A stretch of 37,178 bases of DNA, from positions 1 through 37,178 of IMG/VR virus record IMGVR_UViG_3300048838_000152; one strand, written 5' to 3'. The number at the start of each line of letters is the position of its first letter. Within the stretch, counting starts at the first letter, position 1. The DNA comes from a virus. This document shows, piece after piece, positions 4,011 to 33,089 of this stretch. The position numbers and the translations under genes are program-made. The notes beneath the pieces were generated by a model that did no database searches, had not been told where the DNA came from, and saw nothing but the letters and a program-made list of their open reading frames with translations.

Positions 4011-5689
4011 TGCTTGCCCTCGACGCCACCAGCCGCAGCGAATACGACGCCGAGGCCACGGCTGCGGATGCCGCGCAGGCCGTCGTCGACGCGCTCGGCG
4101 CCACGGTGTACGTCAAGGTCTACGACGGCGCCGGGGTCGTGAAGGCGAGCGGCACGATGGGCTCGCCGTGGGCGACGCAGGCCGCGGGTGTCATCACGAT
4201 CGGCGAGGTGTCGTCGTTCTCGATTACGGCGGCGGGGGCGGTGGACCCGACCTGGTATCTCCGGTTCGAGGGCGGCTCGCGCTGGGTGCAGGGATCGTTC
4301 GGGCTCAGGGGATCGGGTGCCGACTTCGAGCTGTCGAGCGACGCATGGATCAACGGCTACTCGATTCGGCTCGGGACGGTGCGGCTCAATGCGCCGTCAA
4401 ATGCGGCACCGTCCCTGGCGGGTGCGGGAACTAGCCTTACGCTGCTGGCCGGCGCGGGTGGCTATTACGACTTCGACAACTACGCCACGGATCCCGACGG
4501 CGACGTGCTCACGTTCACGCTGTTCGGTGGCGTCACCGGCATCTCGATCGATGCGTCCAGCGGCTTGCTGACTGTGACGACGACGGTCGGCGCCGGAACG
4601 TACCCGCTGACCGTGCGAGTGTCGGACCCGGCGGGGCTGTCGAGCGATTTGCCGTTCACGGTCACGATTGGCGAAGACGTACTGATACGCTTCGCGCCTG
4701 GCCATTACTTCCGGCCGGGACTGTCGGACTCGCTGGCGTCGATCCAGTCGAAAATCGCCAGCTACGATTCGCGCGTTAAGGGTTTGACGTTGTTCCGGTA
4801 CTGGAAGGACATCGAAACGTCGAAGGGTGTCTACGACTGGACGTTCTTCGATGCCGTGATCGCGACGGCCCGGCAATACAACAAGCGCGTGCTGCTGCGG
4901 ATTCAGGATCGCATTTTCAACCAGACGAACCCGGCGCTCGCGGTCCCTCAGTACATCATTGACGAGGGGCTGTCCTACGTCACGACGGGGACGCCGCGGG
5001 CCGGGACTGCACTCTGGTTGCAAGCTGCAATGGATTATTCCATTGCGGTCTACACCGCCGCGCTGACGCGCTATGGCAGTCAGGTTTGTGCGGACGGCGA
5101 TCCGGTGCTGGTCGGCACTTATGGCGAGGAGTCGATCTTCGCTGGCGTGGATGATCTCTACCCGAGTTATTCCCCGTCCGCCCTGGTGACGCAGGAATTG
5201 CGGCGGGCGTTTGCGCTGCGCACGGCGTTTCCGAACATCCCGTATTTCTGGCTCACGAATTGGATCACGCCGCACTCGACGCACAGCAGCGGCACATACA
5301 CGACCGATGCCGCCAGCCACGCGGCCATGCTGACCTGGTTCTCGGACGCCTGCCGGGTCGATCCTGGCATCTTCACGAGCTACGGTCCCGACACGCGATT
5401 CATCAACGGCGTGCAGATCGACGGCTGGGACGCGATCCGCGGCACGTTCGGCGGCGTAGATCATCGCGGCGATTACGCGGTCATCGGCTGGACTGAGGCG
5501 CTCGAGTGGAACGCGGGCAGCACGGCCGCGCAGATATACGCCGGGGCGGTGACGCAGGGCACGGCGGCGATCATGGTCTGGTCGACCAATCCGGCGCAGT
5601 GGGCGAGCGAGGCGTATCCGTACATCGCGACGCACGCGACCGATGAAACGATCCCGACGCGCCTGGTCGGCCGTGCGCAGGTGATCTAG
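4010..5689 (+). CDS. Fibre protein with cadherin-like and glycoside-hydrolase-like domains
   Basis: The 559-residue protein has three parts. Residues 1-125 form a beta-rich N-terminal region, probably for attachment. Residues about 130-220 resemble a dystroglycan/cadherin-like Ig fold (YATDPDGDVLTFTL ... SSGLLTV ... YPLTVRVSDPAG). Residues about 225-545 look like a TIM-barrel glycoside hydrolase: LTLFRYWKDIETSKGVYDW at the first strands, GTYGEES as a possible acid/base glutamate, and IGWTEALEWN as a possible nucleophile glutamate. This would make it a virion-associated glycanase acting on host surface polysaccharide. The start at 4010 overlaps the previous stop. The hydrolase call rests on pattern only. 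Confidence 0.6.
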   Translation: MLALDATSRSEYDAEATAADAAQAVVDALGATVYVKVYDGAGVVKASGTMGSPWATQAAGVITIGEVSSFSITAAGAVDPTWYLRFEGGSRWVQGSFGLRGSGADFELSSDAWINGYSIRLGTVRLNAPSNAAPSLAGAGTSLTLLAGAGGYYDFDNYATDPDGDVLTFTLFGGVTGISIDASSGLLTVTTTVGAGTYPLTVRVSDPAGLSSDLPFTVTIGEDVLIRFAPGHYFRPGLSDSLASIQSKIASYDSRVKGLTLFRYWKDIETSKGVYDWTFFDAVIATARQYNKRVLLRIQDRIFNQTNPALAVPQYIIDEGLSYVTTGTPRAGTALWLQAAMDYSIAVYTAALTRYGSQVCADGDPVLVGTYGEESIFAGVDDLYPSYSPSALVTQELRRAFALRTAFPNIPYFWLTNWITPHSTHSSGTYTTDAASHAAMLTWFSDACRVDPGIFTSYGPDTRFINGVQIDGWDAIRGTFGGVDHRGDYAVIGWTEALEWNAGSTAAQIYAGAVTQGTAAIMVWSTNPAQWASEAYPYIATHATDETIPTRLVGRAQVI

Positions 5690-6636
5690 TGGGCGCCTAT
5701 ACGTTCCGCGGTGCCGGCACGGTCGTAGTCAGCACGTCCGGCGCAGACCTGACGCCGACCGTGACGCATTCGAGCGGTGATCTGCTGCTGCTGCATACCG
5801 CACAGCGAGCCGGGGCCGAAACGGTTGCGGCGATGACCGGCTGGACGCAGCTCGGCTCCACGAACGCGAACGGTTCGCTCGAACTGTGGGCGCGGATTGC
5901 CGATGGGGGCGCGAACGATGCGCCGACCGTGAACTGGTCCGGCACGACGTTCTGCGATGCGTGGATCGAAGCCTGGTACGGCGACGTCGAGACGGATCTG
6001 GGCGCGATCATCGCGGCGTCGAATGTCTACACGGTATCCAGTTCGAGCAATCTGACCGTGCCGTCGCTGACGGTGCCGACGGCCGATTGCCTGATCATCC
6101 TGTCGAGCCGCAAGAACAAGACCTCGACCTCGAACGACAACACGTTTACCGCACCGGCATCCTTCACCGAGCGCAAGGAATACGTTTACGCGGGCACCGG
6201 CAACGCGCACACGAGCGCATCGTGGCAGCAGACCACGGCGACGAACGTATCGGCCGGGAACTGGACGCTCTCCGGCACCGCGGAGGCACTGTCGTCCAAC
6301 AGCATCATCGTCGCGCTGCTCACGGCGGCTTCTGGGCTGACGCGAAAACTGAAGCTGCTGGCACACAGCGATGCACAGAGCAAAACCGGCGTGCAGGGCG
6401 TCGTATTCGAGGCGCCTAGTGGTGGGAACCTGACCGGTGACAAGATCGGCGAATTCACCGGCCGCAGCTTCGATGGCACGCTCGAGTCTGGAAAGGCTGT
6501 GCTCAAAGTGCCGGTCGCCGACTTCGGCGGCAGTGCGCTTACAACCAGCGACACGCCGCGCGTCGAGATCCGCTATGACGACGCCGGTACGATCAAGGGC
6601 ACGGCGATCGTCCCGGCGACGGTGATTGAGGAATGA
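5689..6636 (+). CDS. Phage structural/fibre protein, 315 aa
   Basis: It begins with GTG at 5689, overlapping the TAG of the preceding gene by one base. The sequence is rich in Thr, Ser, Ala and Gly. A first domain (residues 1-215) starts YTFRGAGTVVVSTS and contains repeated SLTVP/LTVPS strands; it resembles jelly-roll or beta-sandwich fibre domains. A shorter second domain (about 220-315) is also beta-rich. No enzymatic motif or signal peptide is visible. Its place between the hydrolase-like fibre and other fibre genes suggests a structural tail or receptor-binding component. The exact family is unknown. Confidence 0.55.
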   Translation: MGAYTFRGAGTVVVSTSGADLTPTVTHSSGDLLLLHTAQRAGAETVAAMTGWTQLGSTNANGSLELWARIADGGANDAPTVNWSGTTFCDAWIEAWYGDVETDLGAIIAASNVYTVSSSSNLTVPSLTVPTADCLIILSSRKNKTSTSNDNTFTAPASFTERKEYVYAGTGNAHTSASWQQTTATNVSAGNWTLSGTAEALSSNSIIVALLTAASGLTRKLKLLAHSDAQSKTGVQGVVFEAPSGGNLTGDKIGEFTGRSFDGTLESGKAVLKVPVADFGGSALTTSDTPRVEIRYDDAGTIKGTAIVPATVIEE

Positions 6637-6944
6637 GCGCCGGCAATATCTTCGCGCTGGAAACGAGCGGCGCGTACACGATTGCGGCGATCTACACCGG
6701 CACCGAGACGCAGGCCCTGGCCGGCGCCGCAATCGCTGGCGCCACGGCCGAAGCCGGCATCAATGAATTCGTCATCAACGGCGGCGGGCAGCTGCCGCCC
6801 TCGGTGCTGATGGGCTCGGCGATCGGCCGGGCCACGGCCTCGGGCACGCTGCTGTCGGAAACCGAAGCGGTGCCGCCGCGCTCGAGCCGGCAATGGATCC
6901 TGAAAATCACGTCGGGTGGCGAGATCACCCGGCAGGCTGCCTAA
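6633..6944 (+). CDS. Small structural protein, 103 aa
   Basis: The start overlaps the preceding stop (ATGA at 6633). The protein begins MSAGNIFALETSGAYTIAA and has an alanine/glycine-rich middle, followed by IGRATASGTLLSETEAVPPRS. It lacks cysteines, signal peptide and membrane helix. It is likely a small structural or assembly protein of the fibre block. No family is recognised. Confidence 0.5.
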   Translation: MSAGNIFALETSGAYTIAAIYTGTETQALAGAAIAGATAEAGINEFVINGGGQLPPSVLMGSAIGRATASGTLLSETEAVPPRSSRQWILKITSGGEITRQAA

Positions 6945-6953
6945 GAGGTTCCC

Positions 6954-7523
6954 ATGCGAAAGCTGCTGCTGTTGCTCTGCCTGGTCGCGACGCCGACGCT
7001 CGCCGCAGACGTGCGCGTGTCGTGGACGCAGCCGGTGCAGAATACCGACGGCTCCACGATCCCGGCGAGTGGCGCAGGCAGTATCCAATCGAACCGGATC
7101 GAGTGGGGCACCTGCGTCGGCACCGGCTTCGGCACGGCGGCCGGTTCGCAGACCATTCCGGCGGCCACGGCGTACACGGTCACCGGCCTGGCGCCCGCCA
7201 CGCACTGTTTCCGCGTCACCGCGACCAACACCTACGGCGCCGAGTCGGGCGTGTCGAACGTCGCGCAACGTACCGTGCCGGCGCCGGTCCCGCTGCCGCC
7301 GGTTGTGACTACAGCCGTCATCGCCGGAATGCTGCAGACGCCGGTGTACAGCATCACCGCGGCGAACAAGCTCTCGACGCTGATGGGATTTGCAGACGTG
7401 GGCAAGGCGTGCGTCGGCCCGGTGCTTGCGACCTATCGCGGCGCGGCGTTCCGCGAGGTGGCGCGCAGCGATGTGAAGCTGTGGGGCAGTACGACCTTGC
7501 GGCTTGCTGCACCCTGCGCGTGA
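6954..7523 (+). CDS. Secreted fibronectin type III-like protein
   Basis: The 189-residue product has a second clear signal peptide in this block: MRKLLLLLCLVATPTLAA, with cleavage expected after residue 17 or 18. Residues about 19-108 read as an Fn3 domain (VRVSWTQP ... TAYTVTGLAPATHCFRVTATNTYG). A proline-rich linker (VPAPVPLPP) follows. The C-terminal 70 residues resemble a small domain containing two cysteines (KACVGPV and the C-terminal APCA). A good ribosome binding site (AAGAGG) precedes the ATG. A phage late protein built for export may act in the host envelope. The Fn3 call is by pattern. Confidence 0.65.
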   Translation: MRKLLLLLCLVATPTLAADVRVSWTQPVQNTDGSTIPASGAGSIQSNRIEWGTCVGTGFGTAAGSQTIPAATAYTVTGLAPATHCFRVTATNTYGAESGVSNVAQRTVPAPVPLPPVVTTAVIAGMLQTPVYSITAANKLSTLMGFADVGKACVGPVLATYRGAAFREVARSDVKLWGSTTLRLAAPCA

Positions 7524-7531
7524 TCTGACGA

Positions 7532-9145
7532 GTGACGACTCGATTTTATCTGCCGAGCAGCGGGACGCCGGACATCAGCCCGGCCTTCAATACGACCTCG
7601 TGGCCGACCGTCAGCGAGGCCGACCGCATTGATGCCGTGACGACCCGCATCTCGTCGACGATGACGAGCAAGGCTGGCGTCGGAAATGCAGCCACTACTC
7701 GTCAACTGCTGCGGCAGTACATCAGCGCCGGACTGGCCGCACAGACGATCAGCGGCACGATCAAGGGACAGGTGCGTATTGCGTCCAACGTTACAAACGT
7801 TGGCGTATGTGCCCTCGCGGTGCGCATCGCGAAGTGTTCGTCGGACGGTTCCGGCGTTACGGAAATCCTGGCTGCCACGCAGTCGGCTGTTGCCGAAATT
7901 GAAATCCCACCCGCGAGCAACGGCACGACGCTGACCAATCGGCGGCTAGAGACTTCACCGAACAACACGTTTAGCCTGGCGCTGACCAGCACAACCGTCA
8001 GCGCTGGCGACCGGCTGATCATCGAACTCGGCTACAAGGACAACACGACCAACACTGGCCGCTACGGATTGCTGTCCTTCGGCGATGACTCGGCGACGGA
8101 CCTCCCAGAAGACGAAACCACAACCGCGGCAAATAATCCGTGGGTCGAGTTTTCTGGTGACATCAGCTTTGAAACTGGCGGATCCCAAGCCCTCGAAGGT
8201 GCTGCCGCTGGTAGCGCACAGGCCAGCGCTGCCCTTGCGGTGGCAAAGGCGCTTGCCGGGGCTGCTGCGGCCTCTGGGACGGCTTCGGCCGACCTGGCGC
8301 TGACGAAAGTCCTGGCAGGCGATGCCACGGCCTCGGCACTCGCGGACGCCGGGATCTCGATCGGCAAGCCGCTGGCCGGCGATGCGGTCGCCTCGGGTGC
8401 CGCGTCGGGTGCTTTGACGCTCGTCATACCGCTGGCTGGCGCCGCTACGGGATCGGCCACGGCCTCGGCTGAGTTTGCCGGCGAGGCCGCCCTCGCGGGT
8501 GCGGCACTGGTATCGGCTACGGCCTCGGGTTTGCTGTCGATCACGGTTCCGCTGTCGGGCGCCGCCATTGCTGGGGCGTCGGCCAACGGGCAGCTGCTGA
8601 TCGGCGTCGTACTGAGTGGCGCCGCCCTGGCGAGTGCGCTGGCGAGCGGTGCACTGACCACGACGGGCAGCGCCGACCTCGAAGGCGCGGCCGTGGGCTC
8701 GGGCACGGCCTCTGCGTCGCTGTCCCTGACGGTGTTGCTGACGGGCGCGGCCATCGGCAGTGCTGCGGCATCGGGGCAGCTCGAATCAGCCACGGTCGCG
8801 CTCGCAGGGGCCGCCGCCGGTGGCGCACAGGCCTCGGCCGAGCTCAATTTGCTGGTGCCACTCACGGGCGCCGCGATTGCCTCGGCGCTGGCGAGCGGCA
8901 GCCTGACGACCGTCGTCGCCATGTCGGCGGCTGCGCTGGCAGGCGCAACGGCTTCAGGCCAGCTTGCGATCGGGGTCACGCTGCAGGGCGATGCCGTGGC
9001 GAGTGCAACCGGCACAGCCATGATGGGCTTCCGCTCGGCATCCCCGCGGCGGGTCATCGTCACAGGCATGCCGTCCCGCAGCATCGTATCGAGGGGCCGA
9101 AGTAGGGTCATCCGGGTGGATCTACCGAGCAGGGCTGTGAACTAA
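7532..9145 (+). CDS. Fibre protein with 14 tandem 20-residue repeats
   Basis: The 537-residue product starts with GTG at 7532. Residues 1-219 form a beta-rich N-terminal domain (FYLPSSGTPDISPAF at the start; AGDRLIIELGYKD near its end), typical of phage fibre or capping proteins. From residue 220 about fourteen units follow, each close to 20 residues with consensus LxGAAxASAxASGxLxxxVP, ending near residue 500. A basic C-terminal tail (RSASPRRVIV ... SRGRSRVIRVDLPSR) closes the protein. The regular hydrophobic/small-residue pattern suggests a beta-helix or fibrous stalk. The downstream gene resembles a fibre-tail adaptor, which supports a fibre role. Confidence 0.7.
   Translation: MTTRFYLPSSGTPDISPAFNTTSWPTVSEADRIDAVTTRISSTMTSKAGVGNAATTRQLLRQYISAGLAAQTISGTIKGQVRIASNVTNVGVCALAVRIAKCSSDGSGVTEILAATQSAVAEIEIPPASNGTTLTNRRLETSPNNTFSLALTSTTVSAGDRLIIELGYKDNTTNTGRYGLLSFGDDSATDLPEDETTTAANNPWVEFSGDISFETGGSQALEGAAAGSAQASAALAVAKALAGAAAASGTASADLALTKVLAGDATASALADAGISIGKPLAGDAVASGAASGALTLVIPLAGAATGSATASAEFAGEAALAGAALVSATASGLLSITVPLSGAAIAGASANGQLLIGVVLSGAALASALASGALTTTGSADLEGAAVGSGTASASLSLTVLLTGAAIGSAAASGQLESATVALAGAAAGGAQASAELNLLVPLTGAAIASALASGSLTTVVAMSAAALAGATASGQLAIGVTLQGDAVASATGTAMMGFRSASPRRVIVTGMPSRSIVSRGRSRVIRVDLPSRAVN
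8189..9031 (+). repeat. Coding tandem repeat, about 14 units of 60 bases
   Basis: Within the fibre gene the sequence repeats with a 60-base period. At protein level the unit is LxGAAxASAxASGxLxxxVP. Units 9 and 10 carry one or two extra residues; the rest keep register. The bases have diverged more than the protein pattern, so it is an old repeat under selection for a regular fold, although unequal recombination could still change the copy number. Confidence 0.85.
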
Positions 9146-11457: not shown

Positions 11458-13151
11458 CGAAGGACGCGCCGCACGTCGCGGCGGCCGAGAAGTATTGCCG
11501 GGACGTAGTGGCCGGCAAGCTGCCGGCTGGCAAGTGGGCGCGGCTCGCCTGTGCGCGTCACTTGGACGACCGCAGGCGGGAGCGGACGAAGGCGTTCGCG
11601 TTCAAGTTCGACAGCACCGAAGCTGAGCGGGTCTGCAAGTTCGTCGAGATGCTGCCGCACGTGAAAGGGCGGTGGGCTCGGCTGGATCCGAAGCGGCCGA
11701 AAGATGGCTTGCTGCGACTCGAGCCGTGGCAGTGCTTCATCGTCGTGAGCCTGTACGGCTGGCGCCGCAAGGGGACGACGTTCCGGCGGTTCCGCAAGGC
11801 GTCGATCTACCTGCCGAGAAAGAACGGCAAGTCGACGATGGCCGCCGGGATGGGCTGGTGGATGTTCGGCAAGGACAACGAGCCGGGCGCCGAGGTGTAC
11901 TCGGGGGCCACGACCGAGAAGCAGGCGTGGGAGGTGTTCGGGCCGGCGCGGCAGATCGGGCTGAAGCAACCGGCGCTGGCCGAAGGTCTCGGGGTCACGG
12001 TCAACGCCTCCAACATGATCCGGCTCGGGGACGCATCGAAGTTCGAGCCGATCATCGGCAAGCCTGGCGACGGCGCCTCGCCGCACTGTGCGATCGTGGA
12101 CGAGTACCACGAGCACCCGACGGCGGACCTGTACGACACGATGCTCACCGGCATGGGTGCGCGCGAGCAACCGCTGCTGCTGGTGATCTCGACCGCCGGC
12201 GACAACCTGGCGGGTCCGTGCTACGACGACTGGCTGACGGTGCAAAAGGTGCTCGAGCGCACGGTCGAGGATGACTCCCACTTCGGGATCATCTTCGCCG
12301 CGGACCCTGAAGACGACTGGACCAGCGAGCTCGCGCTGCGCAAGGCAAACCCGAACGCCGGCGTGAGCGTGTCGATCGAGTTCCTGCAGAGCCAATTGCA
12401 GGACGCGATCAACAACCCGCGCAAGCAGGGCATCTACAAGACGAAGCACCTGAACTTGTGGGTGAACGCCCGTGATGCGTACATCAACATGCAGCGCTGG
12501 GCGGACTGCCGGCAGGCGGGCCTATCGCTCGACGACATGGCGGGCCGGGTCTGCTACGTCGGTATGGATCTGGCGTCGAAGGTGGACATTGCGGCCCTCG
12601 AGCTGCTGTTCCCGCTCGATGACGGTGCATACGCGCGCTTCGGGCGGTACTACCTGCCCGACGAGACGGTGCAGGCGCCAGAGAATGACCATTACCGCGG
12701 CTGGGCGAAGTCCGGCCTGCTGACCGTCACGGACGGCAACATCATCGACTTCGGACGGATCCTCGAGGACGTCGAGGCGCTGGCGATGCGGTTCCAGGTG
12801 GAAGCGCTGGCCTATGACCCGTTCCAGGCAACGATGCTCGTGACCGAATTGACGAACGCGGGGCTGCCCTGCGTCGAGGTGAAACCGACCGTGCTGAGCC
12901 TGAGTGAACCGATGAAGCAGGTCGAAGCGCTGATCCGCGACCGCAAGTTGCACCACGACGGGGATCCCGTGATGACGTGGATGATGTCGAACGTAGTGGC
13001 GAAAGAGGACGCGAAGGACAACGTCTATCCGCGCAAGGACCGGCCCGAGAAGAAGATCGACGGATTCGTCGCGCTGTGCATGGCGATGAATCGCGCGATG
13101 GCTGCCGATGAAGGCGGTGAATGGGCCACAGGTCGGCTGGTGACGTTGTGA
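11454..13151 (+). CDS. terL: Terminase large subunit
   Basis: The 565-residue protein is the DNA-packaging motor. The ATPase part shows a Walker A-like LPRKNGKST (residues 120-128), a Walker B IVDEYHEH (214-221) and a coupling motif LLLVISTAGD shortly after. The C-terminal RNase-H-like nuclease starts with VGMDLASKVD (369-378), whose Asp is a metal ligand; a further Asp (AYDPFQA) and a C-terminal DGFVAL lie where the others belong. It converts ATP hydrolysis into DNA translocation into the prohead and cuts the genome. The GTG at 11454 overlaps the small-subunit stop. The open frame runs further upstream but only as a shadow. Confidence 0.93.
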   Translation: MTKDAPHVAAAEKYCRDVVAGKLPAGKWARLACARHLDDRRRERTKAFAFKFDSTEAERVCKFVEMLPHVKGRWARLDPKRPKDGLLRLEPWQCFIVVSLYGWRRKGTTFRRFRKASIYLPRKNGKSTMAAGMGWWMFGKDNEPGAEVYSGATTEKQAWEVFGPARQIGLKQPALAEGLGVTVNASNMIRLGDASKFEPIIGKPGDGASPHCAIVDEYHEHPTADLYDTMLTGMGAREQPLLLVISTAGDNLAGPCYDDWLTVQKVLERTVEDDSHFGIIFAADPEDDWTSELALRKANPNAGVSVSIEFLQSQLQDAINNPRKQGIYKTKHLNLWVNARDAYINMQRWADCRQAGLSLDDMAGRVCYVGMDLASKVDIAALELLFPLDDGAYARFGRYYLPDETVQAPENDHYRGWAKSGLLTVTDGNIIDFGRILEDVEALAMRFQVEALAYDPFQATMLVTELTNAGLPCVEVKPTVLSLSEPMKQVEALIRDRKLHHDGDPVMTWMMSNVVAKEDAKDNVYPRKDRPEKKIDGFVALCMAMNRAMAADEGGEWATGRLVTL

Positions 13152-14452
13152 GAATCTTTGGCTGGGAAATCAGTCGCGAGCAGAAGACGCTTGGCGTCAA
13201 TGACGTGCTGGCGCGGTTGCGCGCCGTGCAGTCCGGCATGGGCGCGACTGTCACGCCCGAGAATTGCATGCGCTCGCCGACGGTCCACGCGATCGTGACG
13301 GCTGTTTCGCGGCGCCTTTCGGTGACACCCGTCCATGTCTACAAGACAGGCACGAAGAACGGCCGACAGACGAAGGAGCAGGACCGGAACCATCCGATAG
13401 CGAAGCTGCTGCAGTACCCGAATACGTGGCAAACCCGACAGGCATTCTGGGCCGATGCGGCATCGTGTTTCGTGCGGCATGGCAAGTTCTACGCCTACAA
13501 GAGCCGCGGCAAGACGGGGCCGATTCGCGAACTTCTGCCGCTGCACGCGAACGCGGTGACGCCCAAGCAGGACGACGACTACAGCGTCCGATACGAAGTG
13601 ATGGAGCAGGGCGGCGGCTACAAGGAACTGAGCGGCAGTCAGTTGTTGCACGTCCGCGGTGCGTCGCGCGACTTCATTGAGGGCGATTCGCCGGTAAAGG
13701 ATGTGGCTCAAGCCATCGCGCTCGAGATCGCGGCCGAGGAATTCGGATCGACGTTCTTCAGCAACGGCGCGCTGCCGCTGATGATCTTGCGGCACATTCA
13801 GGGGTCCAAAGGTTTCAAGACGCTCGAAGAGGAAAAGCAGTTCGTCAAGGACTTCCAAGACGCCTTCGGCGGCGGAAACCGCCATAAGGCGCTGCTGTTG
13901 CCGACCGGGATCGAGGCCGGGAATCCAGTCAGCGTCGAGAACGACAAGGCGCAATTCCTTGAGACGCGCAAGTATCAGCGCACCGTAATTGCGGGCGCGT
14001 TCGGCGTCCCGCCGCATCTGGTCGGCGACCTCGAACGGGCGACGTTCAACAACGTCGAGCAACAGGATCAGGACTTCACGCTCAACGTCATCATGCCCGT
14101 CGCGCAGGCGTTCGAGGCGGCGATGGAGCGGGATCTGCTGACCGATTCGGACTGGTCGCAGGGTGTCATCATCCGCTTCAACCTGGACAGCATCCTGCGC
14201 GCCGACTTCAAGAGCCGGCAGGAAGGCTTGCAGTTACAGCGCCAGAACGGCGTGCTCTCGGCGGACGAGTGGCGCGAGATCGAAGGCAAGAATCCGCTCG
14301 AGGAAGAGAACGGCGGCGACGAATACTGGCGGCCGGGCAACATGCTGGTCGCGGGCGCGCCTGTGCCGGTTCCTGCGCCGAAGCCCGTTCCTGCCGTCGA
14401 AGATGAATTGAGCAAGGCGATCCGCCACCTCAAGAGCGTGGCGAGGGTTTAG
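13148..14452 (+). CDS. HK97-family portal protein
   Basis: The 434-residue product fits HK97-type portal proteins: an N-terminal VHAIVTAVSRRLS segment, a central HPIAKLLQYPNTWQT and FVRHGKFYAYK, and GASRDFIEGDSPVKDV. Then IAGAFGVPPHLVGDLERATFNNVEQQ marks the end of the core domain. A proline-rich tail (PVPVPAPKPVP) precedes a final helix. The portal forms the dodecameric ring at the unique capsid vertex through which DNA enters. It starts with GTG at 13148, overlapping the terminase stop. The protease gene follows after two bases. Confidence 0.92.
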   Translation: MRIFGWEISREQKTLGVNDVLARLRAVQSGMGATVTPENCMRSPTVHAIVTAVSRRLSVTPVHVYKTGTKNGRQTKEQDRNHPIAKLLQYPNTWQTRQAFWADAASCFVRHGKFYAYKSRGKTGPIRELLPLHANAVTPKQDDDYSVRYEVMEQGGGYKELSGSQLLHVRGASRDFIEGDSPVKDVAQAIALEIAAEEFGSTFFSNGALPLMILRHIQGSKGFKTLEEEKQFVKDFQDAFGGGNRHKALLLPTGIEAGNPVSVENDKAQFLETRKYQRTVIAGAFGVPPHLVGDLERATFNNVEQQDQDFTLNVIMPVAQAFEAAMERDLLTDSDWSQGVIIRFNLDSILRADFKSRQEGLQLQRQNGVLSADEWREIEGKNPLEEENGGDEYWRPGNMLVAGAPVPVPAPKPVPAVEDELSKAIRHLKSVARV

Positions 14453-14454
14453 CT

Positions 14455-15147
14455 ATGGAAAAAATGTGCGTTTCGCTCGACGTGAAGTCCCTGAAGGACC
14501 GCGAGCTCGAAGGCTTGGGCGCGGTGTTTCGCAATCGCGACCTCGGCGGCGACATCATCGCGCCGGGCGCGTTTGCAAAGACGCTCAAGCAACCGACGCA
14601 GAAAGTCCGGCCGATGCTGTGGATGCACAAGCCGGATCAGGTCATTGGGCGCTGGGACTCCATGAAGGAATCCGACGATGGGCTGTTCGTAAAGGGCATC
14701 CTGGCCGATACCGACCTCGGCAATGAGATTCATACCTTGCTGAAGATGGAGGCCGTCCGCGGCCTGTCCATCGGCTACGAGGTGAACGACTACGGCTACG
14801 ACAAGAACGGCGCCCGCATCCTGAAGGAGATTGACCTCTGGGAGGTCAGCGTCGTGTCCATGCCAATGAATCCGCTGGCGACGATCACTCACGTCAAGTC
14901 GCGCCTGAGCGCGGCGGGCGAGTACGTCCCGACGATCAAGGAGTTTGAACGCATCCTGCGCAATGCGGGGTGCAGCGCGAGCACTGCGAAGCTCATCGGC
15001 TACAAGCTGCGGTCCCTCGAGGACGAGCTCGACGAAAGGTCGGTCCCGCCCCTGCGCAATGCGGGAGAGGATGACGTCGCGAAGGCGCTGAAAGAGATCG
15101 CGGACAGGATCCAGGCGGCGGCCATTCGACAGGCATTCGCCGCGTAA
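14455..15147 (+). CDS. Prohead maturation protease (HK97 family)
   Basis: The 230-residue protein is the serine protease that removes scaffold and delta domains during head maturation. The herpesvirus-assemblin-like catalytic residues can be placed: His58 in LWMHKPDQVIG, Ser105 in VRGLSIGY and Glu130 in DLWEVSVVSMPMNP, the last a family hallmark. The C-terminal 70 residues are helical and may be the self-cleaved tail. It lies between portal and capsid genes, as in HK97. Confidence 0.92.
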   Translation: MEKMCVSLDVKSLKDRELEGLGAVFRNRDLGGDIIAPGAFAKTLKQPTQKVRPMLWMHKPDQVIGRWDSMKESDDGLFVKGILADTDLGNEIHTLLKMEAVRGLSIGYEVNDYGYDKNGARILKEIDLWEVSVVSMPMNPLATITHVKSRLSAAGEYVPTIKEFERILRNAGCSASTAKLIGYKLRSLEDELDERSVPPLRNAGEDDVAKALKEIADRIQAAAIRQAFAA

Positions 15148-15172
15148 CCCATCACGTACAGAGGAATTGAAA

Positions 15173-16468
15173 ATGTCTGAAATCATGCAGGCCATCGAGG
15201 CCGTCGGCAAGTCCTTCGAGGACCTGAAGAAGACGAACGAGCAGATGCTCGCCGAGGAGCGCAAGGGCAACGAGGTCCGCGCGAAGGAACTGAAGGACGC
15301 GCTCGAGAAGATCAGCGACGATCTGAGCCAGAACGTCAAGCAGAAGGAGATCGCCGAGAAGCGGCTGGCCACGCTGCAGGAACGTCTCGAGATCGTCGAA
15401 GCGGTCAACAGCCGCCCCGGCAAGACGATGCAGGACAAGATCCACAGCGAGCACAAGGATCTGTTCTTCAAGTGGCTGCGCTCGAAGGGCACCGACCAGA
15501 ACGCGGTCGACCAGTACCGCGAGCTCGTCCGCAAGTCGCGCGAGGTCAAGGACGTGTCCCTCACGGATGCGGCCGGTGGCTTTGCGCTGCCCGAGGAGAT
15601 CAGCCGCTCGATCGACAACCTCGTGCTGAAGCTTTCGGCCATCGCCGGCAACGTCAAGAACGTGCAGGTCGGCACCAGCGACTACAAGGAACTCATCAGC
15701 GTCAACGACGCGACGTACACGTGGGCGGCGGAGGCCGACTCGCGCAGCGCGACCGCCGAGCCGACGCTGCGCAACCGTGCGCCGACCTGGGGCGAATTGT
15801 ATGCCTACATGCAGGCGTCGAACTGGAGCATTGAAGACCTCTTCTTCAATGTGGAGAGCTGGCTGGTCGAGAACGCCGCGGAAGGTTTCGCGGTGGGCCT
15901 CGCCACGGCGATCTACACCGGCAACGGTTCGGGCAAGCCCACGGGCATGTTCGCGGCCGCGCCGACGAGCGGTGATGACTATGCGTCGCCTGAGCGGGCG
16001 CATGGGGTGTTCGAGTACATCCCGCTGTCTTCGCCGTCCTCGCCGTTCACCTCAACGGGCATCACGGCCAAGACGCTGATCGATCTCGTGTACCAGCTCC
16101 GCGCCCCGTACCGCAACGGCGCCAAGTTCGCCATGAACTCGGTGACGCAGGGTCACGTGCGCAAGCTGACCGACACGACCGGGCAGTTCCTGTGGCAGCC
16201 GTCGATGCAGGCCGGTCAGCCGGATCGGCTGCTCGGGTACGAGCTGTTCACGTGGGAGGACCTGGGCAACCCGACGACCTCGACCGCGCTCGCGGCCGTG
16301 TTCGGCGATTTCCGGCGTGCGTATACGCTGGCGACGCGCTCGGGCATGTCGATCGTCCGTGACAACATCACGGCGCCCGGCTTCACCAAGTTCTACATCT
16401 CCCGGCGGTACGGAGGCATCGTGACGAATAACAATGCCCTCAAGATCGCGAAGGTGTCGGTGTCGTAA
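15173..16468 (+). CDS. Major capsid protein (HK97 fold)
   Basis: The 431-residue product is the main head protein. Residues 1-85 form a charged coiled coil (EAVGKSFEDLKKTNEQMLAE onward) acting as an internal scaffold or delta domain removed by the protease. From about residue 127 (VSLTDAAGGFALPEEI) the HK97 core begins, and it ends with the usual GGIVTNNNALKI strand. GAGGAA (15161-15166) is a strong ribosome binding site for the ATG at 15173; an in-frame TTG at 15167 lies inside the spacing region and is less likely. A strong hairpin terminator follows directly. Confidence 0.93.
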   Translation: MSEIMQAIEAVGKSFEDLKKTNEQMLAEERKGNEVRAKELKDALEKISDDLSQNVKQKEIAEKRLATLQERLEIVEAVNSRPGKTMQDKIHSEHKDLFFKWLRSKGTDQNAVDQYRELVRKSREVKDVSLTDAAGGFALPEEISRSIDNLVLKLSAIAGNVKNVQVGTSDYKELISVNDATYTWAAEADSRSATAEPTLRNRAPTWGELYAYMQASNWSIEDLFFNVESWLVENAAEGFAVGLATAIYTGNGSGKPTGMFAAAPTSGDDYASPERAHGVFEYIPLSSPSSPFTSTGITAKTLIDLVYQLRAPYRNGAKFAMNSVTQGHVRKLTDTTGQFLWQPSMQAGQPDRLLGYELFTWEDLGNPTTSTALAAVFGDFRRAYTLATRSGMSIVRDNITAPGFTKFYISRRYGGIVTNNNALKIAKVSVS

Positions 16469-16476
16469 CCGATTGG

Positions 16477-16506
16477 GAGGGGCGGGGAAACCCGCCCCTC
16501 TCGTTT
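16477..16506 (+). terminator. Strong hairpin after the capsid gene
   Basis: The ten-base arms GAGGGGCGGG (16477-16486) and CCCGCCCCTC (16491-16500) pair perfectly around a GAAA tetraloop, followed by TCGTTT. It starts nine bases after the capsid stop. It probably terminates part of the transcripts, so that the capsid gene and upstream genes are expressed above the cassette behind it, or it protects capsid mRNA from 3' decay. Confidence 0.85.
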
Positions 16507-16507
16507 C

Positions 16508-16609
16508 ATGGCAAAGCAGAAAAAGCGAATCAAGCGGCGTAAGAAACCCGCGCCCGAGAACAAGTCACTTGGCCGAGCTCCAGCGAATAAATCCCGATTG
16601 GTCGGGTGA
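16508..16609 (+). CDS. Tiny basic reading frame, 33 aa, possible leader
   Basis: An ATG at 16508 opens a 33-codon frame with a very basic start (MAKQKKRIKRRKKPAPENK). It overlaps the beginning of the DUF115-like gene in another frame. The basic start followed by proline resembles the N-terminus expected for the downstream protein, which lacks a good start codon of its own. Three explanations remain: a coupling peptide, a +1 frameshifted N-terminus, or a sequencing indel. No ribosome binding site is evident beyond the hairpin's G-rich left arm. Confidence 0.35.
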   Translation: MAKQKKRIKRRKKPAPENKSLGRAPANKSRLVG

Positions 16610-17252
16610 GCCCTGCATCGTGGCTGCCACGGGACCGTCACTGACGGCCGAGGTGGCGCACCGCTGCCGCATGGCACGGTTGCAGGATCAGTGGCGGGTG
16701 ATTGCGGTGCAGGACGCCTACCGGCGCATGCCGTGGGCCGATGCAGTGTACGGCTGCGATCCGCGCTGGTGGAATCTGCACCAGGACTGCGGCGGATTCA
16801 AGGGCGAGAAGTGGTCGACGCACCACGACGATGAGTCGAATCACAAGTTCGAGCAAGCGGACGCCTACGGACTGCGCCTCGTGCGCGGCGATCATGGCGA
16901 CGAGTTTTCATTCGATCCGGGTCTGATTCGGTACGGGTCGAACAGTGGATTCCAGGCGATCAACCTCGCGCTGCTCAAGGGCTGCCGGTATATCGTGCTG
17001 GTCGGCTTTGACATGCGGCACGTTGGCGGACAGGGCCACTTTTTCGGGGATCATCCGGAGGGGCTGCACAACCGCACCGACTATGAATCGTTCTTGCCGC
17101 ATTTCCGGCGCGGCGCGAAGTCGCTGCCGGCGGACGTGCGGATCGTGAACTGCACGCCGGATTCGGCGCTGGACTGCTGGCCGATGATGGATCTGGAGTC
17201 GGCCATTGCGGACGATCGTCTGCTGCGGCACCGGGCCGTCGCTCACGCATGA
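16569..17252 (+). CDS. DUF115/Maf-like protein, first of a tandem pair
   Basis: The 227-residue product starts at the best available in-frame codon, TTG at 16569, without a clear ribosome binding site. It carries the nucleotide/sugar-binding start CIVAATGPSLT (residues about 17-27), then AVQDAYRRMPWADAVYGCDPRWW, GSNSGFQAINLAL, YIVLVGFDM and GHFFGDHP, and ends ALDCWPMM. This pattern belongs to the DUF115 group, which includes the flagellin glycosyltransferases Maf/PseD and the archaeal MptE pyrophosphokinase. Position behind the capsid gene suggests modification of virion proteins, but the substrate is unknown. The next gene is a diverged paralogue. Confidence 0.65.
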   Translation: MAELQRINPDWSGEPCIVAATGPSLTAEVAHRCRMARLQDQWRVIAVQDAYRRMPWADAVYGCDPRWWNLHQDCGGFKGEKWSTHHDDESNHKFEQADAYGLRLVRGDHGDEFSFDPGLIRYGSNSGFQAINLALLKGCRYIVLVGFDMRHVGGQGHFFGDHPEGLHNRTDYESFLPHFRRGAKSLPADVRIVNCTPDSALDCWPMMDLESAIADDRLLRHRAVAHA

Positions 17253-17826
17253 GCGTGTGGCCGTCGCGCGCGGGCGTGGCTGGCCGATCTACGTTTGCAA
17301 CGATGCGTTCCGGCTGGCGCCGGACGCGGCCTTGCTGCATGCCTGCAACTACGGCTGGTGGGCGGCGCGCTGGCGCGAAGTGGCGTCCCTGCCGGCCGAG
17401 AAGTGGACGACGAACGCACAGGCGGCGTCCGAGTTCGGCCTGAACTGGATTGCTGAGGCGAACCGGCCCGGCCTGTCGACGGATCCGGCGCTGCTGCACC
17501 ACGGGCACTCGAGCGGCTACCAGCTCGTTGGCATGGCACATAGGGCGGGCGCCGAGCGGATCGTGCTGCTTGGCTACGACCTGAAGTTCGCGCCGGACTA
17601 CGACGGCAAAGTGCGCCGGCCCGGGAGCGGTCCGCGGCATTTCTTTGGCGAATACGAGCCCGCTTTGCAGCATTGGCCGTCGGTCATGGTGCGCGACGGG
17701 GTGCATATTGAACTGCTAGACCTGTACCGCTCGATCGCGCGGCAGGGTCTGGTCGAGATCATTGACTGCAGCATGGGGGCGCTGGATTGCTTCCCGAGGA
17801 TGGAAATTGCCGATGTTGACGGATGA
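17206..17826 (+). CDS. DUF115/Maf-like protein, second of a tandem pair
   Basis: The 206-residue product begins with TTG at 17206, preceded seven bases upstream by GGAG (17195-17198), which decides the start. It overlaps the upstream gene by 47 bases. It shares the landmarks of its neighbour: GTGPSLT near the N-terminus, CNDAFRLAPDA, GWW, AEKWTT, HSSGYQLVGMA, RIVLLGYDLKF, RHFFGEYEP and ALDCFPRM. The two are therefore tandem duplicates that have diverged strongly, perhaps for different acceptors or donors. No signal peptide or membrane segment is present, so it acts in the cytoplasm, where heads assemble. Confidence 0.65.
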   Translation: MRTIVCCGTGPSLTHERVAVARGRGWPIYVCNDAFRLAPDAALLHACNYGWWAARWREVASLPAEKWTTNAQAASEFGLNWIAEANRPGLSTDPALLHHGHSSGYQLVGMAHRAGAERIVLLGYDLKFAPDYDGKVRRPGSGPRHFFGEYEPALQHWPSVMVRDGVHIELLDLYRSIARQGLVEIIDCSMGALDCFPRMEIADVDG

Positions 17827-18340
17827 GGCCATGCACGAACGCATGGTGAACGGCTGGCGGGCCGGCGAGCCCTTCACTAAATGCGGCAACGGCAGCTTGC
17901 CCGATGCGACCGCGGTGATCCGCGCCTGGCTGCCTGACGTCTGTAACCGACACGGCATCAAGTCCGTATGCGATGCAGGTGCGGGTGATCTGAAGTGGCG
18001 GCACGGCATGACGTGGAAGGTACGCTATCGGCCGTTTGACCTGATCCCGCGACATGAAACGGTGAAGCAGGCCGACATCACTCGCGACGTGCTGCCGAAG
18101 TGCGACGCGATTCTGTGTCGAATGGTGCTGAATCACCTCGACGCTGAACGCGTCGGCATGGCGCTCGCCCTGTTCCGCCAGTCCGCGAAGTATCTGTTCG
18201 CGACGCAGTTTGATGGACCGCAGCCGCAGAGATCGCCGCAGTTCAAGCGGCTTGACCTGGTGCATTGGCTCGGCAAGCCGCTCGAATCGGCGCGCGACGG
18301 ACGGGAGGCCGATTGTCGGCTGGCGCTTTGGAAGTTCTGA
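17813..18340 (+). CDS. SAM-dependent methyltransferase-like protein
   Basis: The 175-residue product contains a class I methyltransferase motif I, SVCDAGAGD (residues 51-59), and a post-motif segment KCDAILCRMVLNHLDAERV (around 98-116), like the substrate strand and helix of small methyltransferases. A conserved-looking N-terminal FTKCGNGS segment precedes it. It overlaps the previous gene by 14 bases. In a glycan cassette, a sugar O-methyltransferase is a natural partner. DNA methylation is less likely, since no (D/N)PPY motif is seen. Confidence 0.65.
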   Translation: MLTDEAMHERMVNGWRAGEPFTKCGNGSLPDATAVIRAWLPDVCNRHGIKSVCDAGAGDLKWRHGMTWKVRYRPFDLIPRHETVKQADITRDVLPKCDAILCRMVLNHLDAERVGMALALFRQSAKYLFATQFDGPQPQRSPQFKRLDLVHWLGKPLESARDGREADCRLALWKF

Positions 18341-18921
18341 CCGTTGTTTGCTTGAACTGGCGGGACTACCTCTGCCGCGGCCGGGAGTACGTCGATCGGC
18401 TCGAGGCGGGCGTCAATCGGTACTTGACGATCCCGTTCAAGTTCCGGGAAGTGACCGAATCGGACCTGCCGCCGGGCCGCGATGGATGGTTCAACAAGCT
18501 GCACCTGCTCGAGATGTTCGATGGGCCGGCGCTGTATCTCGACCTCGACGTGATCCTGACCGGCAGCATCGATCACCTGGTGCACCTAGCTCGGGTCGAC
18601 CGCTCGCGGATCTGGGCGCGGGACGACTGGTCCTATCCGGTCACGCAGCCGCGCTACGGCCGCGAGGCCACGATCAACAGCAGCGTGATGCTCTGGCACG
18701 GCAGCAAGGACATGAGCGGCGCCGAGCGATTGATCCCGGTGACGCACGGCGACCAGGGGATCATCACGCAGCTATTCTGGCCGGATGGCATTGGCCTGCT
18801 GCCGAACGATTCGGTGAAGTCCTACAAGTACGACGTGCTGCGCGGTGCCGCGCCCGGGCCGATCACGGTATTTCATGGCAACCCGAAACCTCACGAGGTG
18901 GGCTGGCGTTGCTCGCCGTAA
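18313..18921 (+). CDS. Glycosyltransferase-like protein with DxD motif
   Basis: The 202-residue product starts with TTG at 18313, four bases after GGGAGG (18303-18308). It opens with a beta strand LTVVCLNW, then contains WFNKLHLLEMFDGPALYLDLDVI (residues 59-80). The D77-L-D79 triad is the DxD metal/nucleotide-sugar site of GT-A enzymes, and the layout is close to GT8-type galactosyltransferases. Later INSSVMLWHG and THGDQGIIT correspond to acceptor-side motifs of that group. It would transfer a sugar from a nucleotide donor. It overlaps the methyltransferase by 28 bases and the next gene by 13. Confidence 0.72.
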   Translation: MSAGALEVLTVVCLNWRDYLCRGREYVDRLEAGVNRYLTIPFKFREVTESDLPPGRDGWFNKLHLLEMFDGPALYLDLDVILTGSIDHLVHLARVDRSRIWARDDWSYPVTQPRYGREATINSSVMLWHGSKDMSGAERLIPVTHGDQGIITQLFWPDGIGLLPNDSVKSYKYDVLRGAAPGPITVFHGNPKPHEVGWRCSP

Positions 18922-19622
18922 TCCATGCCACGCCGCAGATAGCGTGGCAGCGCGAGTTCGCGCCGAAGATGCTCGCCGGACTGCTCAGGATGGGCGTCTC
19001 GGCCGAGGTCGTGCACGACACGAACCGCCGGGAAGGGCTCCCGATCCTGCTGGGCACGACGCGCTGGCGCTCGCTCGAGCAGGGCGACTATCTGCTGGTG
19101 GACCGCTGCAGCTTCGGCGATACGAACCGCTGGGTGACGCTGGTCCGCAACGGCCACGGGCGCCGGGGGGATCATCGGGTGCCGAATGGTGCGCCCGCGG
19201 AACGGTGGGAGCGGTATGCCGTTCCTGTCATGCCGTGGCAGTCGGGCAAGCGGGTGATCCTGTGCGGCCAGCACGAGAGCTGGTCGCCGCACTGGCCGAA
19301 CGTGCGGGACTGGTATCAGACCGTCCCGGCGACGCACTTCCGCAAGCACCCGGCCGCCGACAACCCGACCGGGCTGCCGGAAACCCGGTCATGGAAGGAA
19401 GCAGGGCTCGCGGTGACGCTGAATTCGAGCGTCGCGGTGGACGCGGTGCTGGCCGGGGTGCCAACGGTGACGATGGACGAAGCGGCGATGGCCTGGGACG
19501 TGACCGGCCATTCGCCCGACGAACGGGTCAAGCCTGAGCGCCGCCGCTGGCTGCACTGGCTCGCCTGGACTCAGTGGACGCACGACGAAATAGCCGAGGG
19601 AAAATGGGCGCATCTCTTGTAA
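18909..19622 (+). CDS. Capsule-transferase-like (GT-B type) protein
   Basis: The 237-residue product begins with TTG at 18909, ten bases after GAGG (18895-18898). Its C-terminal half has VILCGQHESWSPHW, then ATHFRKHPAAD and LAVTLNSSVAVDAVLAGVPTVT. The last segment closely resembles the NSSvgvEAl..G.PV motif of capsule polysaccharide (Kdo-type) and related GT-B glycosyltransferases. It thus completes a five-gene sugar-handling set. The head-tail connector gene follows with an 18-base overlap, showing that the cassette is embedded in the structural operon. Confidence 0.6.
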   Translation: MLAVIHATPQIAWQREFAPKMLAGLLRMGVSAEVVHDTNRREGLPILLGTTRWRSLEQGDYLLVDRCSFGDTNRWVTLVRNGHGRRGDHRVPNGAPAERWERYAVPVMPWQSGKRVILCGQHESWSPHWPNVRDWYQTVPATHFRKHPAADNPTGLPETRSWKEAGLAVTLNSSVAVDAVLAGVPTVTMDEAAMAWDVTGHSPDERVKPERRRWLHWLAWTQWTHDEIAEGKWAHLL

Positions 19623-20194
19623 CTCGACCGACCAGCGAGCCGCTGACGCTCGCCGAAGCCCGGGCGCACCTGCGGATCGAGACGACCGAGCTCGACGCGG
19701 TGATTGCTGCCGAGCTCATGGCGGCCCGCGAATACGTGGAGGGACAGACGCGCCGCGCGCTGGCGCCGCAGACGTGGGACTTCACGTTCGATTTCGGCTG
19801 GCCGATGGTCGGCTGCGAGTACCGCATTGACCTGCCGCTGGCGCCTGTCGTGTCGGTGACGTCCGTGACCTACGTGGACGATGCCGGCGCGACGCAGACG
19901 CTGGCGGCGAACCAGTATCAGGTTGCGGGCCTCGGTCCCGATGGACTGCCGCGAATCGTGCCGGCCTATGGCGTCACCTGGCCGTCAGTGCGCTGCCAGC
20001 GGGAAGCGATCACGGTGCGCTGCGTCTGCGGGTATGAAGTTGGCTCGCCGGCCAGGGTGATGATTCCTGAGGGACTTCGGCACGCGATCAAACTGCATAT
20101 CGAGCTGCTGCACGACCGGGATACCGCGGCGCGGGAAACGATCGAGGCGGCGCGTGATGCCCTGATGTCGCCGCACAGGATCGTCCGGCTGTGA
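19604..20194 (+). CDS. Head-tail connector protein (gp6/gp15-like)
   Basis: The 196-residue protein starts LVTRPTSEPLTLAEARAHLRIE, the hallmark of phage head-tail connector (gp6-like) proteins. It continues with the LMAAREYVEGQTRRALAPQTWDF helix-strand typical of the family. The C-terminal half is somewhat extended. Connectors form a ring under the portal that seals the filled head and joins the tail. The ATG at 19604 follows GAGGGAAA, a good ribosome binding site. Confidence 0.85.
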   Translation: MGASLVTRPTSEPLTLAEARAHLRIETTELDAVIAAELMAAREYVEGQTRRALAPQTWDFTFDFGWPMVGCEYRIDLPLAPVVSVTSVTYVDDAGATQTLAANQYQVAGLGPDGLPRIVPAYGVTWPSVRCQREAITVRCVCGYEVGSPARVMIPEGLRHAIKLHIELLHDRDTAARETIEAARDALMSPHRIVRL

Positions 20195-21123
20195 GTTCAC
20201 TTCGGGGCCGCTCGTTGCGTGACATCCTGACGTTCACGCGCTCGACCACGGCCACGTATTTCGATATCGACGGCACGCTGCAGACGGCCGCGATCGACGA
20301 GCCGCGGATCGAGTACGACCCGGCGACGGGCGCGGTGCGCGGGCTGCTGATCGAGGAGTCGCGGACCAATCTGCTGCTCAACAGCGACACGCTGGCGACG
20401 CAGTCGGTGGATGTGACGGCGGTGCCGCATACCCTGAGCTTTTACGGCACGGGGACGGTCACGCTGTCGGGCGCTTCGACGGCCGGGCCGCTGGTGGGGA
20501 CCGGGGCGTCGGACCGGGTATCGCTCACGTTCACGCCGAGCGCGGCGAGCCTGACGCTGACCCTCTCGGGCAGCGCAACCCGCGCGCAGCTCGAGGCGGG
20601 CCCGTATGCGACGAGCTACATCCCGACGACCTCGGCGGCTGTGACCCGCGCGGCGGACGTCTGCACCACGTCCGTGCTGAATCCGTGGTTCAACGCCGAG
20701 GCGGGCACGCTGTTCGTCGAGTACCTGATTCCGTGGTCGGCGCCGGTCAGCGACGGCCACACGCGGCGCATCATCGATATCAACGGCGGCGACGACTACG
20801 AGAGCCACATGGCCGCCTATGTCAACGATACCGGCGGGCGCGGTTCGTTCAGCTATGCCGGCTCGGTCGAACAGTCGAACTTCAACAATCTCGGCTCGAT
20901 GACGACCGGCGCGGTGCAGCGCCAGGCGTATGCGTTCGCGGAGAACGACATCGCAGCGATTGCCTCGGGCGGCACGCTGGCGACCGACACGTCGGCCGCG
21001 CTGTCGACCGCACTCACGACGCTGCGCATCGGCCCGGCCTACGAGCCGAACGGCTACATCCGCAAGGTGAAATTCTACCCGCGGCGGTTGAGCAACGCGG
21101 AACTGACCGCACTGGTGGCCTGA
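20191..21123 (+). CDS. Lectin/LamG-like virion protein in the connector cluster
   Basis: The 310-residue product starts with GTG overlapping the connector stop. Its N-terminus FTRSTTATYFD (residues 15-25) and EESRTNLLLNS are signatures of phage proteins carrying a concanavalin/LamG-like fold. The C-terminal half (LFVEYLIPW ... IIDINGG ... IRKVKFYPRRLSNAEL) is a classic jelly-roll lectin domain ending in the usual FYPRRLSNAEL strand. Such proteins bind carbohydrate or decorate the virion. Its place between head-tail joining genes is unusual for a lectin-like protein; a head decoration or neck-whisker role is possible. Confidence 0.65.
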   Translation: MSSLRGRSLRDILTFTRSTTATYFDIDGTLQTAAIDEPRIEYDPATGAVRGLLIEESRTNLLLNSDTLATQSVDVTAVPHTLSFYGTGTVTLSGASTAGPLVGTGASDRVSLTFTPSAASLTLTLSGSATRAQLEAGPYATSYIPTTSAAVTRAADVCTTSVLNPWFNAEAGTLFVEYLIPWSAPVSDGHTRRIIDINGGDDYESHMAAYVNDTGGRGSFSYAGSVEQSNFNNLGSMTTGAVQRQAYAFAENDIAAIASGGTLATDTSAALSTALTTLRIGPAYEPNGYIRKVKFYPRRLSNAELTALVA

Positions 21124-32114: not shown

Positions 32115-33089
32115 TCATCGGAGCGCCTGCACCTTTCGCTCGCGCACGTAGACGCCCAGCATCTGTGCGCCGTGGCCGAGGATGTTGTGGCCGGCGTCGC
32201 TCGCCGCCTTCGCCCGGATGTCGTGGAAGTGCCAGTCCTTCGGCATCCGCTTGATGGCCGACTGCAGCCCGCCCATCGTCCACGCCTGGTTGAACCTGTT
32301 CGTCAGGACGTACTCGCTCACCGTCCGACGCTGCCGATGCTTCCTCGGGTCCGGCTCCCTCGCCGCGATCCGTTCCTGCCGCTCGAGCGCCCGCCTTACG
32401 AAGAACCGCAACGCATCCGACCAGGCGATCAGTCGCCGCTTCCCGGTCGTGCCCGCGGTCTTTCCCTCCAGAATGTAGATCCCGTCCGGTCGCAGATCCT
32501 CGCGGCGCAGCTTGCGTAGATCGCCCTGCCTCGCGCCCGTCAGCAGGGCCAGCGCCAGCACGTCCTGCAACGGCTCTGGTGCCACCTCGAAGGCCGTCAG
32601 GAATTCCACGTCCGTGACGTACCTTTCCCGCCGTCTTTCTTTGTTGCGCCGCACGCCCTGGCACGGATTGAACTCGGCCCACTTGTTGCGCATCGCGAAC
32701 TCGTAGGCCGACGACAGCACCGCGCGCTCGCGGTTACCCATCGGCCCGTGCCCGTCTCGCTTGCGCTTCTCGAGGTAGGCCGCCACGAGGTTCGGGCGCA
32801 CTGCGCCGATCCGCATCCGGCCGAAGTGGTGCATCAGCCGTGAATCGATGATGCGCGTGTACTCCCGGCGCGTCGTCTCGCTGATTTCGGCCGCCGGTAG
32901 GTAGCGCGCCAGCAGCTCGCCGACGGTCTCGGGGTCGCGCTCGATCGGCGTCTCGCGAAGCGCCCGGTGCAGGGCGGCGACGCCCTCGTCACGCCTGGTG
33001 AGTGCGATCCAGCGATTCCTGACGACGCGGTAGTACCTGCCGTTTCGCAGGTACACGCCTTTCGGGATCGGAGAGGTCAAATCCGGCAT
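32115..33089 (-). CDS. int: Tyrosine integrase
   Basis: The product, about 324 residues from the ATG complement at 33087-33089 (a GTG three codons earlier is an alternative), is a phage integrase. The N-terminus starts MPDLTSPIPKGVYLRNGRYY, an arm/DNA-binding motif seen in this family. The SAM-like core-binding region covers about 55-150. The catalytic domain has the first Arg in TGARQGD, a Lys in EGKTAGTTGKRR, HFHDIR with His and second Arg, the LGHGA His, and the nucleophile Tyr in GVYVRERK. It recombines attP with the tRNA-Lys gene. The attP site lies beyond its 3' end, and it overlaps the upstream excisionase candidate. Confidence 0.9.
   Translation of the reverse strand: MPDLTSPIPKGVYLRNGRYYRVVRNRWIALTRRDEGVAALHRALRETPIERDPETVGELLARYLPAAEISETTRREYTRIIDSRLMHHFGRMRIGAVRPNLVAAYLEKRKRDGHGPMGNRERAVLSSAYEFAMRNKWAEFNPCQGVRRNKERRRERYVTDVEFLTAFEVAPEPLQDVLALALLTGARQGDLRKLRREDLRPDGIYILEGKTAGTTGKRRLIAWSDALRFFVRRALERQERIAAREPDPRKHRQRRTVSEYVLTNRFNQAWTMGGLQSAIKRMPKDWHFHDIRAKAASDAGHNILGHGAQMLGVYVRERKVQALR

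Follow-up and report, generated by a model that had tools for sequence, protein, structure and literature searches.

The heads of phages are commonly pictured as plain, undecorated protein. In this work, we analysed a 37,178-nucleotide stretch of DNA (the window), a 37-kb virus record in IMG/VR (IMGVR_UViG_3300048838_000152), and describe in it a five-gene cassette of glycosyltransferase-like and methyltransferase-like genes that sits between the genes for the HK97-type major capsid protein and the head–tail adaptor. The cassette is recurrent rather than a one-off, which suggests that phages commonly coat their heads with a methylated, probably acidic sugar in a way that has yet to be described. 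Capsid glycosylation is already known in mycobacteriophages, but the cassette and its fixed site appear undescribed, as our search of the open-access literature returned no description of either. This fits a preceding sequence-only reading of the window, to which the combination was unfamiliar, although the cassette turned out to recur.

The cassette consists of five plus-strand open reading frames (ORFs) at roughly 16569–19622 of the window, flanked by the two head genes:

15167..16468, plus strand: HK97-type major capsid protein (PF05065, E 4e-54; phrog_10, 3e-60)
16569..17252 (start approximate), plus strand: gene 1, Maf/DUF115, GT42-like glycosyltransferase A (phrog_4603, 8e-37)
17206..17826, plus strand: gene 2, Maf/DUF115, GT42-like glycosyltransferase B (phrog_4603, 9e-23)
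17813..18340, plus strand: gene 3, class I S-adenosylmethionine (SAM)-dependent methyltransferase-like, with a DAGAGD motif and LNHL (phrog_3382, 4e-17)
18313 (or 18328)..18921, plus strand: gene 4, GT-A, GT8/glycogenin-like glycosyltransferase (phrog_1962, 3e-7)
18909..19622, plus strand: gene 5, KpsC-like GT-B glycosyltransferase with the fold of a beta-3-deoxy-D-manno-oct-2-ulosonic acid (beta-Kdo) transferase (family profile, predicted fold)
19604..20194, plus strand: head–tail adaptor, downstream of the cassette and overlapping gene 5 (phrog_442, 2e-24)

Each gene overlaps the next (genes 1 and 2 at 17206–17252, 2 and 3 at 17813–17826, 3 and 4 at about 18313–18340, and 4 and 5 at 18909–18921), and gene 5 overlaps the start of the adaptor gene at about 19604–19622. 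The ORFs, their coordinates and the capsid and adaptor profile matches agree with the sequence-only reading, which had placed five overlapping genes between the capsid and connector genes. Its starting point of 16508 has to be moved: the ATG there opens a separate 33-codon ORF in another frame (16508–16609), and gene 1 starts at about 16569 with a TTG codon, or possibly further upstream.

A search of IMG/VR with gene 1, blind to genomic context, returned 80 viral loci, and a search with the gene-3 family, for which nine of the gene-3 sequences had themselves served as seeds, returned 70, which came to 59 non-redundant loci once near-duplicates had been removed before counting. Families were delimited by iterated profiles, and weak matches in single loci may be wrong. 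The Maf-like gene lies downstream of the capsid gene in all 53 non-redundant loci having both; of the 41 non-redundant loci with a capsid gene and neck genes, 37 have it between the two. All four families co-occur in 45 of the 59 loci, and their order is Maf-like gene or genes, methyltransferase, GT8-like and KpsC-like in every one of these (45/45, a count that permitted the second Maf-like gene found after the methyltransferase in two loci); the same gene order, which had been proposed as something to seek in other phages, thus does exist there. In most of the 45 full loci, the adaptor and joining genes come next after the cassette, and cassette glycosyltransferase genes are linked to virion genes in viral loci. 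Searches of isolate phages returned no complete cassette.

Relatives' cassettes also hold extra genes, encoding an NAD-dependent epimerase, further GT8 proteins, and TylF-like and other methyltransferases, with weak matches to a sulfotransferase and a 2OG-Fe(II) oxygenase and, in one relative, a radical SAM protein. In some phages the small ORF and the adaptor gene are found as neighbours in the same way but the cassette is missing, a pattern that an accessory module should show.

Compared with three relatives, to which they are 56–81% identical at the amino-acid level, the cassette genes tested have ratios of nonsynonymous to synonymous substitution rates (dN/dS) of 0.14–0.44, whereas the capsid gene gives 0.49–0.67 against the same three, all of these values being rough as synonymous change is high. 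The ratios indicate that the cassette genes are probably under purifying selection and, together with the gene order kept in all full loci, exclude chance as the origin of the arrangement. They also bear on a narrower explanation, in which the Maf-like pair acts on the virion, while genes 3–5 have some other purpose or are passengers in decay. Many contigs carry a Maf-like gene alone at this site, as in the D3-like phage PMG1, and the KpsC-like protein lacks the aspartate of the QxxxD motif, both of which would be expected in that case; set against the signs of purifying selection on the cassette genes and their unvarying order, we regard it as improbable.

Single-sequence Pfam and NCBIfam scans gave genes 3–5 no assignment, and family profiles and folds were required to classify them. 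Genes 1 and 2 are paralogues (30% identical) whose own matches to PF01973 are weak and under the curated cut-off, and 43 of the 48 members of the Maf-like family match it at E < 0.01. The AlphaFold2 model of gene 1 (predicted local distance difference test score, pLDDT, of 96) is closest in fold, among PDB entries, to the Magnetospirillum Maf glycosyltransferase (5mu5, E 1e-5, template modelling (TM) score 0.63), and the 48-member family profile reaches the GT42 sialyltransferase CstII (E 1.5e-3). The nucleotide-binding motifs GxGPSL, SG and G[FY]D are present in 199–209 of 211 Maf-like relatives, and gene 2 retains GTGPSL, SG, GYD and HFFG. Predicted fold and motifs thus place genes 1 and 2 among the Maf/GT42-like (DUF115, MptE-like superfamily) glycosyltransferases. 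An MptE-like pterin kinase function was also considered for the pair and rejected, as the Maf fold fits better than the HPPK fold.

Gene 3 has no Pfam match, and a search of the PDB with its family profile was likewise empty. The D/ExGxG motif I (as DxGxG) and NHL-type motifs occur in all 70 of its relatives, and motif I and homology together identify it as a predicted class I SAM methyltransferase. For gene 4, which carries LYLDLDV (with the DxD), HGDQ and FHGNPKPH motifs, the family profile matches glycogenin-1/GT8 (E 6e-9), and its relatives keep DxD in 76 of 80 cases and xDQ in 78 of 80. Pfam GT8 picks up just 3 of 23 family members at E < 0.01, and gene 4 is therefore a divergent member; by its DxD and its C-terminal GDQ and HG motifs, we assign it as a putative GT8/glycogenin-type glycosyltransferase.

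The gene 5 protein alone has no family match, and a single-protein scan of viral contigs gave no relative, so its relatives were collected from the neighbourhoods of gene-1 and gene-3 matches. The resulting 31-member profile matches KpsC (E 1.3e-3) and WbbB-type chains (E 4e-3), and the AlphaFold2 model (pLDDT 94) matches the folds of KpsC (6mgd, E 4e-6) and a retaining Kdo transferase (9yfx, E 2e-4), with a TM-score of 0.53 by query length that reflects partial overlap. Gene 5 retains RKHP and NSSVAVDAVLAGVP motifs. The QxxxD aspartate of KpsC is replaced (QHESW), at the position that is changed to Cys in PDB 8fux; it is absent in the window's subfamily and present in some relatives (26/81 by a loose regular expression). 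Given the fold without this aspartate, we class gene 5 as KpsC-like and not as a Kdo transferase.

The enzyme classes of the cassette and its sugar-transfer chemistry are thus well supported. Profiles, folds and synteny bear out both the position and the labels of the sequence-only reading (two Maf-like proteins, a methyltransferase, a DxD glycosyltransferase and a capsule-transferase-like protein), and structure prediction for genes 1 and 5 gave glycosyltransferase folds rather than the lack of them that was to count against it. The same results bear on a possible hypermodification of phage DNA (glycosylated, methylated bases) instead of protein. DNA-modifying phages such as Shewanella phage Thanatos do have glycosyltransferases and methyltransferases; however, the nearest folds here are protein, lipid or glycan transferases, the cassette sits with head genes and not with replication genes, and nothing recognisable as a base-hydroxylating or nucleotide-synthesis gene turned up among the scanned proteins (several large ORFs being without matches), which makes a DNA target highly improbable.

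We consider it probable, with moderate confidence, that the enzymes of the cassette are expressed late and glycosylate the virion, equipping a head protein with a methylated glycan that probably derives from CMP-sugars. A sugar would be attached to Ser/Thr of that protein by one of the transferases, most likely one of the Maf-like pair by analogy with flagellin; the GT8-like enzyme, using a nucleotide-diphosphate donor, would contribute a sugar, the remaining Maf/GT42-like enzyme and the KpsC-like enzyme would add one or more further residues, and the methyltransferase would cap or alter a sugar. From the Maf/GT42 and KpsC affinities, we infer that donors are probably host cytidine monophosphate (CMP)-activated acid sugars (Kdo or a nonulosonic acid). 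The phage may benefit from a head that is shielded or whose adhesion is changed. The most likely acceptor would be the capsid protein as the first candidate, followed by a head-spike protein encoded just downstream:

20191..21123, plus strand: head-spike-fibre-domain protein, between the adaptor and head–tail joining genes (NCBIfam NF048003.1 GTA_spike_fiber, 5.9e-12, over the curated cut-off)

Proteins similar to the latter were recognised in three other loci only (L009, L087 and L088, the first two being one contig), so that it is unlikely to be a general acceptor.

Several points weigh against a glycan on the head. That the cassette lies among the head genes is no proof that its target is in the virion, and a glycan on the particle is here a prediction from the genes. 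With the QxxxD aspartate missing, the activity of gene 5 may differ or be lost. The window's cassette includes no sugar-nucleotide synthesis gene, so the donors must come from the host. Finally, the usual substrates of KpsC and GT42 enzymes are lipid-linked capsule or lipo-oligosaccharide, which favours an alternative in which a host surface glycan (lipopolysaccharide (LPS) core, O-antigen or capsule) is altered in lysogens or towards the end of infection, perhaps to stop progeny from re-adsorbing or to keep out other phages. That GT42 (Cst) and KpsC are among the cassette's profile and fold relatives would fit such a role, as would an Rz-like spanin match, pointing to a Gram-negative host, and a weak integrase match, suggesting a temperate phage. 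Yet the genes of classical seroconversion tend to be morons of their own, accompanied by membrane proteins, whereas this cassette is fixed inside the structural operon, overlaps head genes and has no promoter-like site of its own found by our scan, and we judge the host-surface explanation unlikely. The support for a capsid or other virion protein as the target is indirect: it is favoured over a host surface glycan because of the fixed place in the head operon, the overlapping genes, the promoter scan and a hairpin at the 3′ end of the capsid gene.

This hairpin and the small ORF that follows it fill the space between the capsid gene and gene 1:

16474..16503, plus strand: 13-bp GC-rich hairpin with a GAAA loop, directly after the capsid stop (free energy, dG, −29.8; z −4.6 versus shuffles)
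16508..16609, plus strand: Lys/Arg-rich 33-codon ORF with APENK and APANK 9 codons apart, its 3′ end overlapping gene 1 in another frame

Of 104 cassette loci, 88 have a stable hairpin at this place, where random positions within those contigs would lead one to expect 17, and the PMG1 record has a terminator annotated at the equivalent place. A scan for consensus terminators did not list the hairpin at 16474–16503, whose T tract is short, and we regard it as a putative leaky terminator or attenuator, or an mRNA-stabilising element. The promoter scan of the region found no sigma-70-like site. The cassette would then be co-transcribed with the capsid gene, late in infection, through a leaky hairpin, which would yield less enzyme than capsid protein.

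All five APENK codons of the small ORF vary synonymously between loci, and selection therefore acts on the peptide. In a DNA-pattern scan of all IMG/VR contigs, the tandem APENK occurs in 46, and in 45 of these just downstream of the capsid gene; roughly 14 have a Maf-like gene downstream and roughly 31 do not, in some because the stretch ends there. As it occurs with or without the cassette, the motif is tied to the capsid–adaptor junction and not to the cassette. A role as a dedicated glycan acceptor was considered for the small ORF and judged unlikely, given that the motif stands at the same junction in many cassette-free phages. A full-text literature search for APENK returned unrelated text only.

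Known systems resemble parts of the cassette. For mycobacteriophages Che8 and Rita, phage-encoded glycosyltransferases are reported to link glycans covalently to the major capsid protein, and these glycans to impair antibody recognition (PMC11256854, PMC12691614, both citing Freeman et al. 2023). The likeness lies in glycosyltransferases of phage origin and, as a prediction for the window's cassette, in capsid glycosylation; in Maravista, a related phage, the genes for glycosyltransferases lie near the 3′ end of the genome and not between the capsid and neck genes (PMC11256854). In phage P1, pmgO and pmgP of the pmgO–pmgP–ppp–pmgQ cluster match the Maf/GT42-like profile, and pmgQ then matches the GT8-like one (L083, 3923–6478). 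This cluster differs in that a phosphatase gene is interposed, it is not beside the capsid gene, and no cassette-type methyltransferase or KpsC-like gene was found in the stretch examined. The three pmg genes, which are reported to be non-essential (PMC10695390), suggest that this model phage may carry a partial version of the cassette.

In the Orf7 region of Pseudomonas phages D3 and PMG1, a Maf/GT42-like gene likewise lies between the major head protein gene, with its annotated terminator, and the head–tail adaptor gene. It is a single Maf-like gene, a separate methyltransferase gene follows head closure, and no GT8-like or KpsC-like gene was detected with the profiles used. In the Caulobacter jumbo phage CcrColossus, KpsC-like and other transferase genes come after a Maf-like gene, adjoining tail genes. 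Whereas the Maf flagellin glycosyltransferase 5mu5 is a chain of 632 residues, the gene 1 protein has a single domain of about 227 residues and is encoded beside the capsid gene; the shared predicted fold makes protein-linked glycosylation plausible as a first step. With the beta-Kdo transferases KpsC and WbbB, gene 5 shares the fold and the HP/NS motif region, but it is smaller, apart from the aspartate difference in its subfamily.

If the cassette does act on the virion, head glycosylation would be common, with a recognisable genetic signature that makes it predictable from sequence, and long-unexplained genes of model phages, P1 pmgO/P/Q and D3 Orf7, would gain a testable purpose. More tentatively, and possible rather than probable, the cassette could be a standardised glycan factory, widespread in environmental siphophages with probably mostly Gram-negative hosts, that uses host CMP-Kdo or CMP-nonulosonic acid to give the head a methylated acidic coat; its accessory site would be fixed, with a capsid gene ending in a hairpin on one side and the adaptor gene on the other.

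As for the rest of the window, no close relative of the region was found in the phage collection, and the nearest isolate capsids are just about 35% identical to its capsid protein. A scan of host genomes for the cassette returned two loci only, both in alphaproteobacterial metagenome-assembled genomes. Besides the head genes, profile scans matched a large terminase, a neck protein, a major tail protein and a tape measure protein; upstream of the capsid gene they gave:

13121–14452: portal
14455–15147: maturation protease

The Rz-like spanin match (6e-5) points to a Gram-negative host. At 32115–33155 on the minus strand, a weak match to a tyrosine integrase (three Pfam integrase models, all slightly under cut-off) suggests that the phage may be temperate. 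Upstream of the terminase gene, at 3968–9142, lie several long ORFs without a PHROG match, one of them with a putative Ig domain (PF05345).

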